The notes under the pieces were generated by a model. The model did not search any database, was not told where the DNA came from, and was given only the letters and a program-made list of their open reading frames with translations. From assembly GCA_020048055.1 (NCBI GenBank), contig JAIFNA010000015.1, positions 1-64,000 on the forward strand: 64,000 nt of DNA, in the 5' to 3' direction. Each line of letters opens with the position of its first letter. Within the stretch, counting starts at the first letter, position 1. Shown in pieces: positions 13,811-19,177 of the stretch. Position numbers and translations under genes: made by a program. The DNA is from Arcobacter sp. Its GTDB lineage: Bacteria; Campylobacterota; Campylobacteria; Campylobacterales; Arcobacteraceae.

Positions 13811-14530
13811 ATGAATAAAATATTTTTATCTTTTTTTGCACTATTAACTATATTTTCATACGGACTTTGTGAGGAATTTTATAGTCCAATAAATCCATAT
13901 AAAACCTTTGCTGTAAAATCTTCAGTTTTAGGTGAAGTAACTTTTGTAAAAAGGGTAAGTGAAAAAAGTTTCATACAAAATGAAACTATAATTAAGTTTG
14001 ATGATAGCGTTGATTTAGTTGAGCTTAACCAAACAATAATCAAATTAAACAACCTAAAAGAGATATATCAAATCGAAAAAGAGTTGGAGGAAAATTTCAA
14101 CAAAATCTCCTCAAAAACAAAATTAGAAAGAGATGCCCAAAAGATAAAAGTACTAACTCTAAGTAGCAATATTGCAGATATTGAGATAAAAATAGCAACA
14201 CTTAAAAACAATATCTCCAAAAAAACCATCAAATTAAAAAATGTTTACCTATCATCTATTGAAGTTGAAGTTGGGGATTTTGTAAATTCTGGTAGTTTAC
14301 TTTATAAAGCATTTGATTTAAGCAAAGGGAAACTCGAAATATTTTTACCAATAAATGAGATTGAAAAATTCAAAAACAAAACAATCTACATAAATGGTGT
14401 AAAAACAAATCTCAAAATAAATAAAATCTCAAAAATTGCAGATGAAAAAAACATCTCAACATATAAATGTGAGATAATAATCAACAACCCAAAAGTATTT
14501 TCCAAATTAGTCAAAGTTGAGTTTAAATAA
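13811..14530 (+). CDS. HlyD-like periplasmic adaptor protein
   Basis: A 239-residue exported protein: signal peptide about 1-20, a first biotinyl-lipoyl half (SSVLGEVTFVKRVSEKSF), a helical hairpin with coiled coil (about 75-135), the second lipoyl half (IEVEVGDFVNSGSLLYKAFDLS) and a beta-barrel region. This is the order of membrane-fusion proteins, in a short version. It overlaps the MFS transporter gene at its 3' end, suggesting an efflux pair. A dedicated outer-membrane channel gene is not adjacent. Confidence 0.75.
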   Translation: MNKIFLSFFALLTIFSYGLCEEFYSPINPYKTFAVKSSVLGEVTFVKRVSEKSFIQNETIIKFDDSVDLVELNQTIIKLNNLKEIYQIEKELEENFNKISSKTKLERDAQKIKVLTLSSNIADIEIKIATLKNNISKKTIKLKNVYLSSIEVEVGDFVNSGSLLYKAFDLSKGKLEIFLPINEIEKFKNKTIYINGVKTNLKINKISKIADEKNISTYKCEIIINNPKVFSKLVKVEFK

Positions 14531-15716
14531 TTTGAGCTACAAAACACTTTTTAGGGAAAATCCAATTGTAAGGAAATTAGCAACTATCCAATTTTTTGCA
14601 TATTTTGGAACTTGGTTTTCAAATGTAGCGATTTATAGTATGCTAGTTAGTTTCAATGCTAGCCCCATACTGATCTCAATTGTTGTTGCTATGCATTTTA
14701 TCCCTGGGATTTTGTTAGCTCCATTTAGTGGGACAATTGTTGATAGGATTGATGCTAAAAAACTTTTAGGGATTTTATTATTAGTTGAATTTTCAATGAC
14801 AATGTGTTTTCTTATGATAGAAAGTATTGATGATGTTTGGTTATTGCTTATTTTTATTTTCATAAGGATGACTTCATCATCGATGTTTTTTACAACTGAA
14901 ATGACCCTGTTGCCAAAACTTTTGCATTTGGAAATATTAAGCAAAGCAAATGAAATCCACTCAATTATTTGGTCATTTACATTTACAGCCGGTATGGCTA
15001 TTGGTGGTTTGGTTGTAAATTTTTATGGGACAACTACTGCATTTATAATCGATGGAGTCTTTTTTTTATTCGCATTTTTAACACTCATAAATACAGGCAT
15101 AAAATATACCCACGAAACAAGTCATGAAAAAATAATCATGGCAATAAAAAGTGGAATAAAATATATTTTAGAAAACAAACATCTAATTAAACTTATCTTA
15201 TTGCACGGTACCGTTGGATTTACATCATTTGATACTATTGTTACTCTTCTGGCTGATTTTCACTACAAATATGTAATTGCTGTTCCACTTGCTATTGGAT
15301 TATCAAACGCTACAAGGTCGTTAGCTCTTATGGTGGGACCTTTTGTGCTTGGTTCTTGGGTAAACAAAGAGAGGTTGTTTTATGTTTTTTTAATTCAAGG
15401 TTTTGGGATAATGCTATGGGCAACCCTTCAATATAATTTTTACCTTGGATTATTTGGATTATTTTTAACTGGACTTGCCACCACAACACTTTGGTCTTTT
15501 ACCTACGCCATGCTTCAAGAGGAAGTTGAAAAAAGATATTTAGGTCGTGTTTTAGCATACAATGAGATGTTTTTTATGTTTACAAATGCCTCAACTACAA
15601 TCATAACTGGTATGTTGGCTATCTATTTTGAGCTATATTTTGTAACTGCTTTACTTGGTATTTCATTTATTTTGATAGCATTTTATTATAAAAATGGTAT
15701 ATTAAAAACAAAATAA
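14517..15716 (+). CDS. MFS transporter (EntS/MFS_3-like)
   Basis: About 399 residues with some 10-12 hydrophobic segments and the MFS loop 2-3 motif SGTIVDRIDAKKLLG near residue 80. Sequence character (FFAYFGTWFSNVAIYSMLV at the start, ILENKHLIKLILLHG in the middle) is that of the MFS_3 group, which includes exporters of siderophores and drugs. The ORF opens at TTG 14517, inside the adaptor gene; TTG 14532 is an equally plausible start. Pairing with the HlyD-like adaptor suggests export. Substrate unknown. Confidence 0.85.
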   Translation: MSLNNLSYKTLFRENPIVRKLATIQFFAYFGTWFSNVAIYSMLVSFNASPILISIVVAMHFIPGILLAPFSGTIVDRIDAKKLLGILLLVEFSMTMCFLMIESIDDVWLLLIFIFIRMTSSSMFFTTEMTLLPKLLHLEILSKANEIHSIIWSFTFTAGMAIGGLVVNFYGTTTAFIIDGVFFLFAFLTLINTGIKYTHETSHEKIIMAIKSGIKYILENKHLIKLILLHGTVGFTSFDTIVTLLADFHYKYVIAVPLAIGLSNATRSLALMVGPFVLGSWVNKERLFYVFLIQGFGIMLWATLQYNFYLGLFGLFLTGLATTTLWSFTYAMLQEEVEKRYLGRVLAYNEMFFMFTNASTTIITGMLAIYFELYFVTALLGISFILIAFYYKNGILKTK

Positions 15717-15869: not shown

Positions 15870-16109
15870 ATGGATTTCAAAGACAATATCGAACTTAGAG
15901 TTTTACTACTAGCAATTTATAAAAAAGAACACAATGAAAATTTTAGTGATGTTTTGAAAATGATGGAAAATAGTCGTGTATTTGATATTAAAACTGGTAA
16001 AAAATATCTAACTGAACTAAAAAATATGAATTTTCTAACTGAAGATAGTTTAACTTTTATAGGGGTAGAGGAAGCAAAAAAAATTGAGTTGGAGTTTAAA
16101 ATTTCCTAA
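15870..16109 (+). CDS. Small protein of unknown function with structured leader
   Basis: A 79-residue cytoplasmic protein, not recognised. The sequence (MDFKDNIELRVLLLAIYKK, then TGKKYLTELKNMNFLTEDSL) looks like a compact, mostly helical domain ending in a beta-wing, compatible with a winged-helix fold. AAAGGG is the ribosome site, 7 nt before the ATG. Its leader is homologous to that of glnK, so the two genes may answer the same signal, possibly nitrogen status. It lies just upstream of the G9 promoter of the peptide operon and could be either its regulator or unrelated. Confidence 0.6.
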   Translation: MDFKDNIELRVLLLAIYKKEHNENFSDVLKMMENSRVFDIKTGKKYLTELKNMNFLTEDSLTFIGVEEAKKIELEFKIS

Positions 16110-16113
16110 TTGA

Positions 16114-16144
16114 TTGTTTTTTAAGCTATGGGGGGGGGTATAAT
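16114..16144 (+). promoter_or_regulatory. Promoter with G9 homopolymer in the spacer (candidate phase-variable)
   Basis: A run of nine G (16130-16138) abuts a perfect TATAAT -10 box (16139-16144). TTGTTT at 16114-16119 is a possible -35, giving a 19-nt spacer; loss of two G would give 17. Poly-G tracts are the typical slipping repeats of Campylobacterota. The start of transcription would be near 16151, 40 nt before the peptide gene's ATG. Confidence 0.65.
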
Positions 16145-16190
16145 CTCCTGCGAACTTTTTTTAAGTTTGAAATAATTTATGGAGGCTATT

Positions 16191-16487
16191 ATGCTAAAAA
16201 TTAGCAAGGTTTTATTAGGATTAGTTGTTGCTTCAGGTATTGCATTTGCAAATCCTACAAGTGAATTTGGTGAACAAAGTATCAGTAAGGCTGATAGTGA
16301 GTTTTTATTTAAAAATAGTGTTGCTTCAAATGTACTTACCTTAAGCAGTGATGAGATGAAAGCTACAGATGGAGAATTTTGGCCTATTGTGTGGGGTTTA
16401 ACTTTTACTTATGTATCATTTGCTAATGCTCCATCATATGGAGGTAAAGTTTACAAAGGTAGAGCCACTAGATATAGAAATTGGTAA
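16191..16487 (+). CDS. Secreted peptide precursor with bacteriocin-like processing motif
   Basis: A 98-residue protein with a perfect ribosome site GGAGG 5 nt before ATG 16191 (an earlier in-frame ATG at 16179 overlaps that site). Residues 1-20 (MLKISKVLLGLVVASGIAFA) form a Sec signal peptide. Residues 51-61 (LSSDEMKATDG) resemble the LSxxEMxxxxGG leaders cut by C39 peptidases, with DG in place of GG. The predicted core, EFWPIVWG onward to residue 98, is aromatic and ends with basic residues. A C39 peptidase and a beta-barrel are encoded 0.5-1.7 kb downstream. It could be a bacteriocin, signal peptide or surface-fibre subunit. Family not recognised. Confidence 0.7.
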   Translation: MLKISKVLLGLVVASGIAFANPTSEFGEQSISKADSEFLFKNSVASNVLTLSSDEMKATDGEFWPIVWGLTFTYVSFANAPSYGGKVYKGRATRYRNW

Positions 16488-16496
16488 CAAACAAAA

Positions 16497-16760
16497 ATGA
16501 GTGTTGATTTATATGAAATTATATCTTCAATTTTATTTCTCATATCTTGTCTTGGATTAATAAATATTAAACAATATGGGAACAGACTAGGTTTTTTTTA
16601 TATTCTGTTGTTTATGTTAGTATTTCCTCTTTCATGGCTTTTTGACGAATATATAGATTATCTGTTGTCTGATATAGTTTCAATAATTTGTTATTCCGTA
16701 TTGTCATTTATTGCTTTAAAATTTAAATTTAATCAAGTAAAAAATCATCAAAATGGGTAA
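16497..16760 (+). CDS. Small membrane protein of the peptide operon
   Basis: An 87-residue protein with three predicted membrane helices (about residues 7-25, 31-48 and 54-73) and a short basic tail. No family recognised. It begins 9 nt after the peptide gene and overlaps the next small membrane gene by 8 nt, so the three are co-transcribed. Two tiny membrane proteins right after a peptide gene is the usual place for immunity proteins, but this is only positional inference. Confidence 0.65.
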   Translation: MSVDLYEIISSILFLISCLGLINIKQYGNRLGFFYILLFMLVFPLSWLFDEYIDYLLSDIVSIICYSVLSFIALKFKFNQVKNHQNG

Positions 16761-16935
16761 CTTTTTTAAGTTTATATTGAATGTATTAACTATGCCAGTA
16801 TTTACATTTTTTGTAGGCTATGGAATATTTCAAGAATCATCTAAAATAGGTGGAATTATAGTATGTATAATTGCACTTATTTTCTTTGTTTTTGAGATGA
16901 TTAGTTTTTTATCAAAAGATGATAAATACCAATAA
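16753..16935 (+). CDS. Second small membrane protein of the peptide operon
   Basis: A 60-residue protein with two predicted membrane helices (about 5-25 and 31-52) and a charged C-terminus (SKDDKYQ). Starts inside the 3' end of the preceding gene (ATGGG at 16753), so it is translationally coupled. No family recognised. Candidate immunity or accessory protein by position alone. Confidence 0.6.
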   Translation: MGNFFKFILNVLTMPVFTFFVGYGIFQESSKIGGIIVCIIALIFFVFEMISFLSKDDKYQ

Positions 16936-16979
16936 TTTTTATCCATTTTTTACTTCAAATACCACATTAAAGGAAACAT

Positions 16980-17849
16980 ATAAAAAATCTTCTATTATTA
17001 CTAACACCATTTTTGCTTATGGCAAAACCTGTCAAAGTTGATGAGATTTTGACTGATAAAAATGAATTTAAAAGTGATTTTTCGATTGCTTACTCAAATA
17101 TCACACGAAAAACAGGTAGTTTTTCTCCGATTACATATCAAACAAATGGCGGAGATTTTGTAACGATACCCACTTATTTAGGGATTGATAGTTCAAACCA
17201 AGATTATATTAATTATGGTACGGCTTTAAAATACGGTATCTCAAAAGATTTGGAAGTTTTTTCAAACTTAAACTTCTACACAAGCGATACTCATACTTCT
17301 GGAAATAGTTTTGAAACACAGAGCGATAAAGGGTTTAATAATCTAAATTTAGGACTTACTTATCAAATCAAAAAAGAAGATGATAAGCCATCTTTTTTAG
17401 TAGGTGGAAGTGTAGATTTGTTAGAAAATGCTCAATTTAGTGACAACCATAAACAAACTCAAAAGTTTAAAAGTTATTCATTTTTCGCTACAAGTTATTA
17501 TACTGTTGACCCTTTAGTCTTTTTGATAAAAGCTGACTATAGACTCAATCTTAAAAAAGAAGATGCGAACAAATCTCTTGATAATGGAGAAATTATAGTA
17601 CTTACCCCTCAAATATATTTTGCCGTAAATCCATTTGCCAACCTAAATTGGGGTATTAAATATCAGTTTACAGGTAAAAATAAAGTAGATGAAAAAATCG
17701 TCTCAAACAGTGGCTCATCTGTAAGTATGTTATTTGGTGTGAGTTATGAGTTTAACTCAAAAACAATTTTTGCACTAGATTATGAAAAAAATGATAACAA
17801 TGAATACTCTATGAACAATATTAATATGAGTTTGTCGTATAAATTTTAA
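16980..17849 (+). CDS. Outer-membrane beta-barrel protein, possible peptide export pore (AUA start?)
   Basis: A beta-barrel protein of about 289 residues: repeated alternating strands (FSIAYSNITRK, YGTALKYGISK, NLGLTYQIKK, MLFGVSYEF) and a C-terminal LSYKF ending in Phe, the outer-membrane insertion signal. No ATG/GTG lies upstream of TTG 17013, which would truncate the signal peptide. In the same frame, ATA 16980, 5 nt after AGGA, begins IKNLLLLLTPFLLMA, a good signal peptide, so AUA initiation is inferred. The stop overlaps the C39 gene's ATG. In Fap amyloid systems a barrel (FapF) works with a C39 peptidase (FapD); that analogy is inference. Confidence 0.7.
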   Translation: MKNLLLLLTPFLLMAKPVKVDEILTDKNEFKSDFSIAYSNITRKTGSFSPITYQTNGGDFVTIPTYLGIDSSNQDYINYGTALKYGISKDLEVFSNLNFYTSDTHTSGNSFETQSDKGFNNLNLGLTYQIKKEDDKPSFLVGGSVDLLENAQFSDNHKQTQKFKSYSFFATSYYTVDPLVFLIKADYRLNLKKEDANKSLDNGEIIVLTPQIYFAVNPFANLNWGIKYQFTGKNKVDEKIVSNSGSSVSMLFGVSYEFNSKTIFALDYEKNDNNEYSMNNINMSLSYKF

Positions 17850-18520
17850 TGAAAAGCATACTATCTATTTTAGTTCTACCGACCATTTTCTTTGGTGCGG
17901 TTAATATTTATCAAAAAGATTTTAGCATTCAAAAGCCTATTAGGTCTTGGATAGAATTCAAAAATGAAAATCTTGTAAGACAAGAATATGATTATAGTTG
18001 TGGTAGTGCAACACTTGCTACTATACTTAAATACTATTATGGGTTTCAGGTTGAGGAGAAAGATGTTTTGGATGATATATTAAAATCCAAAGGTTTTGAT
18101 GTGTCAAAAAAAATATTGCTTGAAAGTGGCGAGACGAATTTATCTTTTTTTGACTTATCCGAATTTTCACAACGAAAAGGATTTAAAGCTATAGGTTTAG
18201 CAATCGATATGGATTCTCTAAAGAATCTTAAAGTGCCAGTGATTTTATTTGTAAAAGTGCGAAAAGATGAACATTTCACGGTCTATAAAAGTATGGACGA
18301 AAATTATGTTTATTTGGCTGACCCATCTTTTGGAAATATCAAAGTATCAATATCAAAATTTAAAGAGATGTTTTTTCAAAGAGAAGATTTAAAACATCCT
18401 GGAAAAATATTGGCAATAGTACCTTTGCAAAATGGATACAATATAAACAAGAACTTTCTAAATGTTAATCAAAATTCAGATTTTATTTATGAGGTAATTA
18501 AAGATAACAATACAAAATAA
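17849..18520 (+). CDS. Exported C39-family (bacteriocin-processing type) peptidase
   Basis: A 223-residue stand-alone C39 cysteine peptidase. A signal peptide (residues 1-16) exports it to the periplasm, unlike the usual C39 domain fused to an ABC exporter. The catalytic set is visible: Gln45 and Cys51 in RQEYDYSCGSATLATIL, His142 in DEHFTVYK and Asp158 in ADPSFGN. Its start overlaps the stop of the beta-barrel gene. It probably cleaves the secreted peptide at 16191 after LSSDEMKATDG; FapD-type peptidases are the closest functional model I know. Substrate assignment is inference from the operon. Confidence 0.85.
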   Translation: MKSILSILVLPTIFFGAVNIYQKDFSIQKPIRSWIEFKNENLVRQEYDYSCGSATLATILKYYYGFQVEEKDVLDDILKSKGFDVSKKILLESGETNLSFFDLSEFSQRKGFKAIGLAIDMDSLKNLKVPVILFVKVRKDEHFTVYKSMDENYVYLADPSFGNIKVSISKFKEMFFQREDLKHPGKILAIVPLQNGYNINKNFLNVNQNSDFIYEVIKDNNTK

Positions 18521-18556
18521 TATGAAGTTTAAAATCCAATAAATCTTTTGGCTCTA

Positions 18557-19177
18557 TTAGATATGATTTAAAATCTCCCGCAAATCTTTTTTATCAATAA
18601 TGATATTTGCCTCTTTTTTGAGTATCTCTTTTGCACAAAATGCTATTTTTTTAGAAGCATAAGGGAACATACTTCTATCATTTGCTCCATCCCCACACAC
18701 CAAAGTATCTTCAATAGTTGCCCCAAGAAGTGCTTGAATTCTTTGAATCATATCACCTTTACTGCTATCAAACATCATATCTCCACCAACAAGTCCACTT
18801 AAAACCCCATCTTTTTGGTGCAAAATATTTGCAAAATCAGCGTCAAGCCCAAGTTTAGTTTTTGCTGGAGTTGTACCTGTTCTAAATCCTCCACTAAAAC
18901 ATACAACTTTGTAACCTTTAGCTTTAAGTCCAGCTACAACTTCAACTGCACCATTCATAAGTGGAAGATTTTCACAAATATCTAAAACTTTTTGATATGG
19001 CAAACCTTTTAAAAGTGCAACTCTTGTAGTTAAACTCTCAAAAAAATCAAGCCTCCCACTCATCGCTTCCTCTGTTATCTTTGCAACTTTTTCACCAAGA
19101 CCTAGTTCATTTGCTAAAAAATCTATCGTTTCACCATCCATCAGTGTGCTATCAAAATCAAATACTGCTAGTTTCAT
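18557..19177 (-). CDS. serB: Phosphoserine phosphatase
   Basis: Last enzyme of serine synthesis, dephosphorylating phosphoserine. The 206-residue HAD-family protein shows motif I FDFDSTLMDGE (nucleophile DxDxT variant DFDST), motif II CFSGGFRTGT, and motif III/IV LVCGDGANDRSMF with the catalytic Lys upstream (SSKGDMI). No regulatory ACT domain, so it is the short SerB type. ATG start with AGGGAATG upstream on the minus strand. The substrate is assigned by family similarity. Confidence 0.9.
   Translation of the reverse strand: MKLAVFDFDSTLMDGETIDFLANELGLGEKVAKITEEAMSGRLDFFESLTTRVALLKGLPYQKVLDICENLPLMNGAVEVVAGLKAKGYKVVCFSGGFRTGTTPAKTKLGLDADFANILHQKDGVLSGLVGGDMMFDSSKGDMIQRIQALLGATIEDTLVCGDGANDRSMFPYASKKIAFCAKEILKKEANIIIDKKDLREILNHI

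Follow-up and report, generated by a model that had tools for sequence, protein, structure and literature searches.

The window analysed here, a 64,000-nucleotide stretch of an Arcobacter sp. genome, carries a 2.4-kb insertion with five ORFs, all on the + strand and all open over their full length, that encode a peptide precursor, two small membrane proteins, a FapF-type outer-membrane barrel, and a Sec-exported C39 peptidase (Table 1). A preliminary description of this DNA had placed the five ORFs correctly, and its interpretation is partly supported by our results, but it missed the boundaries of the insertion and the poly-G promoter.

Table 1. Features of the inserted cassette (positions are those of the window).
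Feature	Position	Strand	Basis
Entire insertion, flanked by a small winged-helix-like gene and serB	16112..18554	.	blastn vs. sister genome G005
G9 run (poly-G) in the promoter spacer, candidate site for phase variation	16130..16138	+	sequence
TATAAT -10 box abutting G tract	16139..16144	+	sequence; similar arrangement in L076, L078, L188
Peptide precursor, 98 aa	16191..16487	+	ORF, alignment, profile search
Sec signal peptide, residues 1-20	16191..16250	+	by eye, hydropathy, alignment
C39 recognition motif LSSDEMKATDGE, positions -12 to -1, residues 51-62	16341..16376	+	register from the available text of PMC6959990
Predicted mature peptide, residues 63-98, 36 aa, pI about 10	16377..16484	+	register; core family
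87-aa membrane protein, candidate immunity protein	16497..16760	+	similarity to same-place protein in L084
60-aa membrane protein	16753..16935	+	ORF
FapF-type outer-membrane beta-barrel, probable ATA start	16980..17849	+	model, fold match, profile, alignment with relatives
Sec-exported stand-alone C39 peptidase (Gln45, Cys51, His142, Asp158)	17849..18520	+	Pfam, NCBIfam, alignment

The gene upstream of the insertion (15870-16109; labelled winged-helix-like by eye) is present in all eight genomes of the genus, and serB, downstream, in seven of the eight. By blastn, homology to sister genome G005 stops near 16111 and restarts near 18555, with 41 bp between. The slot is empty in G005 and in a second sister genome, G007, where the two flanking genes are adjacent; it is occupied by a 373-aa gene in G003 and G006 and by a 447-aa gene in G002, and in G001 and G004 the flanking genes lie on different contigs. 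The interval (window 16110-18557; sister loci L174-L178) is a variable slot with different cargo per species. Among the eight genomes, the cassette-type C39 is confined to that of the window, and the precursor profile gave one other, marginal match in the genus (E 0.07, G006). The G+C content of the insert is 28.3% vs. 30.2% for the window, and that of the two small membrane genes is 23%. While the insertion itself is computed, its horizontal and recent acquisition is what these data appear to reflect. The MFS and membrane-fusion-like genes upstream (13811-15716) were weighed as possible parts of the exporter, but sister genomes retain this stretch without the cassette, which led us to reject them.

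The window precursor has a hydrophobic, Sec-like N-terminal signal and LSSDEMKATDG at residues 51-61, as the preliminary description had noted. In 21 aligned precursors, the Sec-like signal is followed by conserved residues around ADSEFLF and then by LSxxEMxxTxGE. When 257 window ORFs and 4240 shuffled ORFs were searched with a leader profile that included neither the window nor its closest relative, the window peptide was recovered at E 1.1e-14, compared to E 1.1 for the best shuffle. With the leader defined as the 36 residues running up to the invariant Gly, mean pairwise identity among the 21 precursors was 0.37 for leaders vs. 0.24 for cores (shuffled, 0.19 for both), and in 183 of 210 pairs the leaders were more alike than the cores. 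Conserved leaders joined to variable cores suggest a pattern like that of bacteriocins. In the available text of PMC6959990, characterised C39 substrates have the register L(-12)xxxE(-8)L(-7)xxxxG(-2)G(-1). Residues 51-61 match the corresponding double-glycine pattern, L(-12)xxxE(-8)[LM](-7)xxxxG(-2), but the window has Glu62 at -1 in place of Gly, Ala, or Ser. This position is Glu in 27 of 39 distinct peptides of the window's clade; in 20 peptides of other lineages, one of which (from L139) looks like a chance match, it is Gly (6), Ala (3), Ser (1), Glu (4), Gln (4), Leu (1), or Arg (1). Since the register puts Gly61 at -2 and Glu62 at -1, the predicted cut falls after Glu62, which is more likely than the cut one residue earlier, at residue 61, that had been proposed.

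Of 5708 distinct ORFs no longer than 200 aa, five contained the core motif NAPx(4-8)YxG (in shuffles, 0.16 on average and 2 at most). All five (window, L076, L082, L084, and L086) are precursors with C39-type leaders; the L084 ORF, truncated by the end of its contig, begins within the leader. A hydrophobic protein of 78-122 aa is encoded no more than 60 bp downstream of each. The 87-aa protein of the window resembles its L084 counterpart (z 5.7; 0 of 500 shuffles reach the score), its pairwise similarity to the counterparts in L076, L082, and L086 is at shuffle level, and a leave-one-out profile of the five proteins failed (window 18th, E 0.95; L084 6th; L082 320th). Neither the 87- nor the 60-aa protein matched a family above cut-off in Pfam/NCBIfam or found a relative in an iterative search over the collected loci. 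Considering that the position and pace of change of the 87-aa protein are those usual for immunity genes, we infer an immunity role. The preliminary description had put both mini proteins in the usual place for immunity genes; position, shared with the other core-family neighbours, and the L084 match favour such a role for the larger one, and the 60-aa protein is without a relative among the loci. Many Helicobacter precursors are followed instead by a signal-bearing outer-membrane barrel of ~245 aa that replaces the small membrane protein (L086 879-1640, L082 587-1318, and L087 638-1399; also L096, L100, L102, L103, and L108). Its model (pLDDT 85.9) has OmpT and OpcA as best PDB matches, and it is perhaps an outer-membrane immunity or anchoring partner. 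In H. japonicus (L108), a G10 tract (1744-1753) lies between the precursor stop and the start of this partner; since it precedes that start, translation of the barrel may be switched.

The outer-membrane barrel recognised earlier in front of the C39 gene was modelled with AlphaFold from 32 sequences (window plus named loci), giving a structure of about 12 long strands at pLDDT 91.7. In a fold comparison with the PDB, the top 16 matches were all chains of FapF (E 4e-12 to 2e-9; TM 0.66-0.75 by query length). A sequence comparison of the barrel profile with the PDB likewise ranked FapF first (E 9e-4), and the barrel is thus of the FapF type found in the Fap system. About 15 residues precede the first strand, so the coiled coil of FapF is absent. 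The start first listed, TTG 17013, is misplaced. It would remove the signal peptide, and the frame aligns with relatives, which begin MKK...L.AK.VKVDEIL, only from ATA 16980; ATA is therefore preferred and is probably the start codon. This ATA lies five bases after an AAGGA motif, with an in-frame TAA upstream at 16968, and no ATG, GTG, or TTG start retains the signal peptide. ATA is a permitted start in translation table 11. At their junction, the barrel and C39 frames overlap by one base.

The peptidase belongs to PF03412 (E 1.3e-21; 77.2 bits, gathering score 22 bits) and matches solved C39 domains of ABC exporters. The four catalytic residues reported in the preliminary description are invariant in 24 aligned C39 sequences, and the enzyme is stand-alone and exported, as had been claimed. 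Its best NCBIfam models are FapD (NF058616, 95.1 bits) and FilB (NF050078, 83.9 bits); membership of either family was rejected because these scores are far below the curated cut-offs of 330 and 475 bits, respectively. No ABC exporter with a C39 domain plus adaptor was found inside 16112-18554. Elsewhere in the genome, three ABC proteins, all long exporters, match PF03412, and by eye their N-termini show no C39-type Gln-Cys motif.

Conserved synteny in relatives, on which the preliminary description had staked its reading, was observed in a sample of 41 distinct close C39 proteins, window included. The barrel abuts C39 in 39 of 40 distinct relatives having at least 900 bp upstream, and precursors lie within 6.5 kb in 24 of the 31 having at least 2.5 kb. 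Across the order (398 genomes), C39 was matched in 50 genomes and the precursor in 23, and 19 of those 23 had both. A C39 scoring E 2.7e-29 or better was present in 21 genomes, 18 of which also had precursors, compared to 5 of the remaining 377. The first of these figures leans towards agreement because some of the loci behind the precursor profile come from the same genomes. A precursor with a Sec signal and C39-type leader near the barrel-C39 pair is thus conserved in Campylobacterales. A scan of named genomes gave 490 C39 relatives, and the best 80 of these, which were kept, include Helicobacter species, Sulfurovum, Hydrogenothermaceae, Cupriavidus, Herbaspirillum, Rubrivivax, and Alcanivorax. 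Some loci carry precursor arrays, with five profile matches in H. saguini L086, and two genomes (G382 and G340) have six or seven precursors at several places. Our literature search, which covered open PMC papers, turned up none recognisable as an account of this Campylobacterales family.

Runs of eight or more G occur just twice in the genome, and one of them is the G9 tract of the cassette. This tract abuts TATAAT before the peptide gene, and similar tracts occur in three relatives, suggesting phase-variable expression; the promoter-spacer G tracts of Neisseria porA and opc offer a comparison. A promoter scan did not flag the G9/TATAAT site, and its regional promoter count equalled that of shuffles. 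G7-G10 runs before a -10-like box also occur 58-197 bp upstream of the precursor start in L035/L076 (same contig), L078, and L188. Such a run is found within 300 bp of four of the 63 precursors in the pool, so the arrangement is a feature of some loci only. The L188 precursor lies in a genome (G056) with no C39 match and is either an orphan or accompanied by a C39 that was missed. The other long G tract (L155 2734-2742; contig C3 near 72733) lies right where a gene for a predicted outer-membrane protein begins; this gene adjoins a zinc-type ABC transporter and is another candidate for phase variation.

Barrel, C39, and a Sec-signal double-glycine peptide occur together on three small plasmids, pTR11_4 of Acinetobacter sp. 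TR11, pSCU-387-3 of E. coli, and p250 of Avibacterium paragallinarum. Membership was judged with profiles that excluded the plasmids, and for the barrel it rests on profile A2 because the iterated barrel profile may drift; the precursor match on pSCU-387-3 is weak (E 0.06). The latter plasmid (L034) is small and mobilizable, with a related barrel, C39, a 54-aa membrane protein, and a peptide with Sec signal and C39-type leader. The p250 record annotates a 'hemocin structural protein' and a 'hemocin immunity protein', the haemocin precursor has the sequence LSQKEMSEVKGG following its Sec-like signal, and the barrel is homologous to ours (A2 profile, E 1.1e-24). The haemocin locus (HmcD, C39, ATPase, haemocin peptide, and immunity) therefore resembles the cassette in having a Sec-like signal and double-glycine leader, C39, and barrel, but differs in its extra AAA-type ATPase, its core, and its gene order; no HmcB-like ATPase was found in the cassette. 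Killing by haemocin was reportedly the subject of work by Terry in 2003.

The cassette had been put forward as a candidate undescribed operon, but its parts are shared by the haemocin plasmid and by the gonococcal nap island (NapA-C, NapP, NapF, and NapI). As far as the available text of PMC11798529 goes, the latter has double-glycine peptides, a stand-alone C39 (NapP), a FapF-like channel (NapF), an immunity-like gene, and phase-variable homopolymer tracts, and its authors propose periplasmic cleavage and export by the C39 and FapF-like channel. The comparison was made with the published description of the island. The nap tracts lie inside genes, whereas that of the cassette is in the promoter, and the nap authors leave the route across the inner membrane open, suggesting a holin-like NapH (PMC11798529, in part). 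The Fap system of Pseudomonas likewise has a periplasmic, Sec-exported C39 (FapD, which needs its cysteine) and a 12-strand FapF barrel, but it secretes amyloid repeat proteins (PMC5557850, in part), and the coiled-coil region of FapF is missing from our barrel. No repeat subunit like FapB or FapC was found among the five ORFs, in agreement with the preliminary description, and the C39 scores led us to reject Fap/Fil membership. Class II microcins and other double-glycine bacteriocins of ABC-type C39 exporters share the LxxxE[LM]xxxxG leader, a small cationic core, and a small membrane neighbour; the cassette differs from them by the Sec signal in front, the lack of an ABC exporter or adaptor, and Glu at -1. 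It thus departs from Fap and from the haemocin locus in at least one of the features compared for each, and nap was compared by description. Its mechanism resembles that of Fap but is not Fap, and the nap island and haemocin are precedents. Since parts are common to the plasmids, nap, and Fap, the cassette would be expected to work like these systems.

We consider the cassette to be, with fair probability, a horizontally acquired and probably phase-variable system of the bacteriocin type, whose product is most likely a weapon against related bacteria. Sec would export the precursor and signal peptidase would remove residues 1-20, after which the periplasmic C39 would recognise L51/E55/M56/T59/G61 and, judging from the register, cut after Glu62. 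The 36-aa cationic, Trp/Tyr-rich peptide would exit via the FapF-type pore, the 87-aa inner-membrane protein would shield the producer, and slippage of G9 beside the -10 box would alter promoter spacing and so switch the operon. The two-step processing logic of the preliminary description is retained in this scheme, with a periplasmic C39, a FapF-like barrel, and a presumed cleavage. Several observations count against this reading: Glu at -1 is unlike the residues of characterised substrates, homology of the putative immunity protein is significant for the window-L084 pair only, many Helicobacter precursors precede an outer-membrane barrel and no small membrane protein, and the ATPase of the haemocin locus is lacking. 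Moreover, seven of the 31 relatives with at least 2.5 kb upstream yielded no peptide by the precursor profile, four of the 23 precursor-bearing genomes had no C39 match, and the rarely used ATA start could mean weak or lost expression of the barrel.

The near analogue also bears on the target of the peptide. In the available text of PMC11798529, synthetic Naps killed no other bacteria and promoted autolysis, and, considering that nap combines the same kinds of parts with homopolymer phase variation, the exported peptide could act on the producer population (programmed lysis or signal), as proposed for gonococcus, and not on competitors. We regard this as rather unlikely, since competition better accounts for the hypervariable cores, the arrays of peptides next to protein partners, and the relatives on mobile plasmids, haemocin among them. 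It is less likely still that the cassette has decayed, with the ATA codon leaving the barrel poorly made or not made and the system no longer working; the lack of a conventional start that keeps the signal peptide, and the in-frame stop just upstream, would agree with decay, but the five full-length open frames, the intact catalytic residues, and an AAGGA well placed before a permitted start would not. A surface fibre or adhesin subunit of the Fap/Fil kind is suggested by the barrel fold and by FapD and FilB being the best-scoring NCBIfam models of the C39 (95 and 84 bits), but those scores fall far under the cut-offs, the mature peptide, of about 36 aa, has no repeats, and the cassette holds no FapA/B/C/E-like gene, making such a product improbable. 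Finally, one of the three ABC proteins with C39-like domains might export the precursor, the local barrel and C39 serving something else; given their N-termini, the Sec signal of the precursor, and synteny with a stand-alone C39, we consider this very unlikely.

Beyond this locus, a route free of an ATP-driven exporter (Sec, then periplasmic C39, then FapF-like pore) may be a widespread Gram-negative secretion system for double-glycine peptides. Its marks would be Sec and C39 leaders in tandem, relaxed demands on the -1 residue, switching by poly-G in the promoter spacer of some Campylobacterales, and carriage of the cassettes in a variable slot and on small plasmids. As natural substrates, its peptides would account for the orphan class of periplasmic C39 enzymes, FapD included; the case for and against this wider proposal seems to us evenly balanced. 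In the precursor family, a well-defined candidate substrate whose recognition motif can be read lies next to its enzyme and pore, so that the recognition rule and order of export are directly testable in a small operon. The E. coli plasmid pSCU-387-3 is a convenient laboratory model. This matters since, in the available text of PMC5557850, the target of FapD is stated to be unclear and the Fap proteins are without canonical C39 sites. The results also point to a large number of bacteriocin candidates, as yet uncatalogued, in Helicobacter, Sulfurovum, and relatives that would escape searches based on ABC exporters, and to control of one such candidate by a promoter that may be phase-variable.
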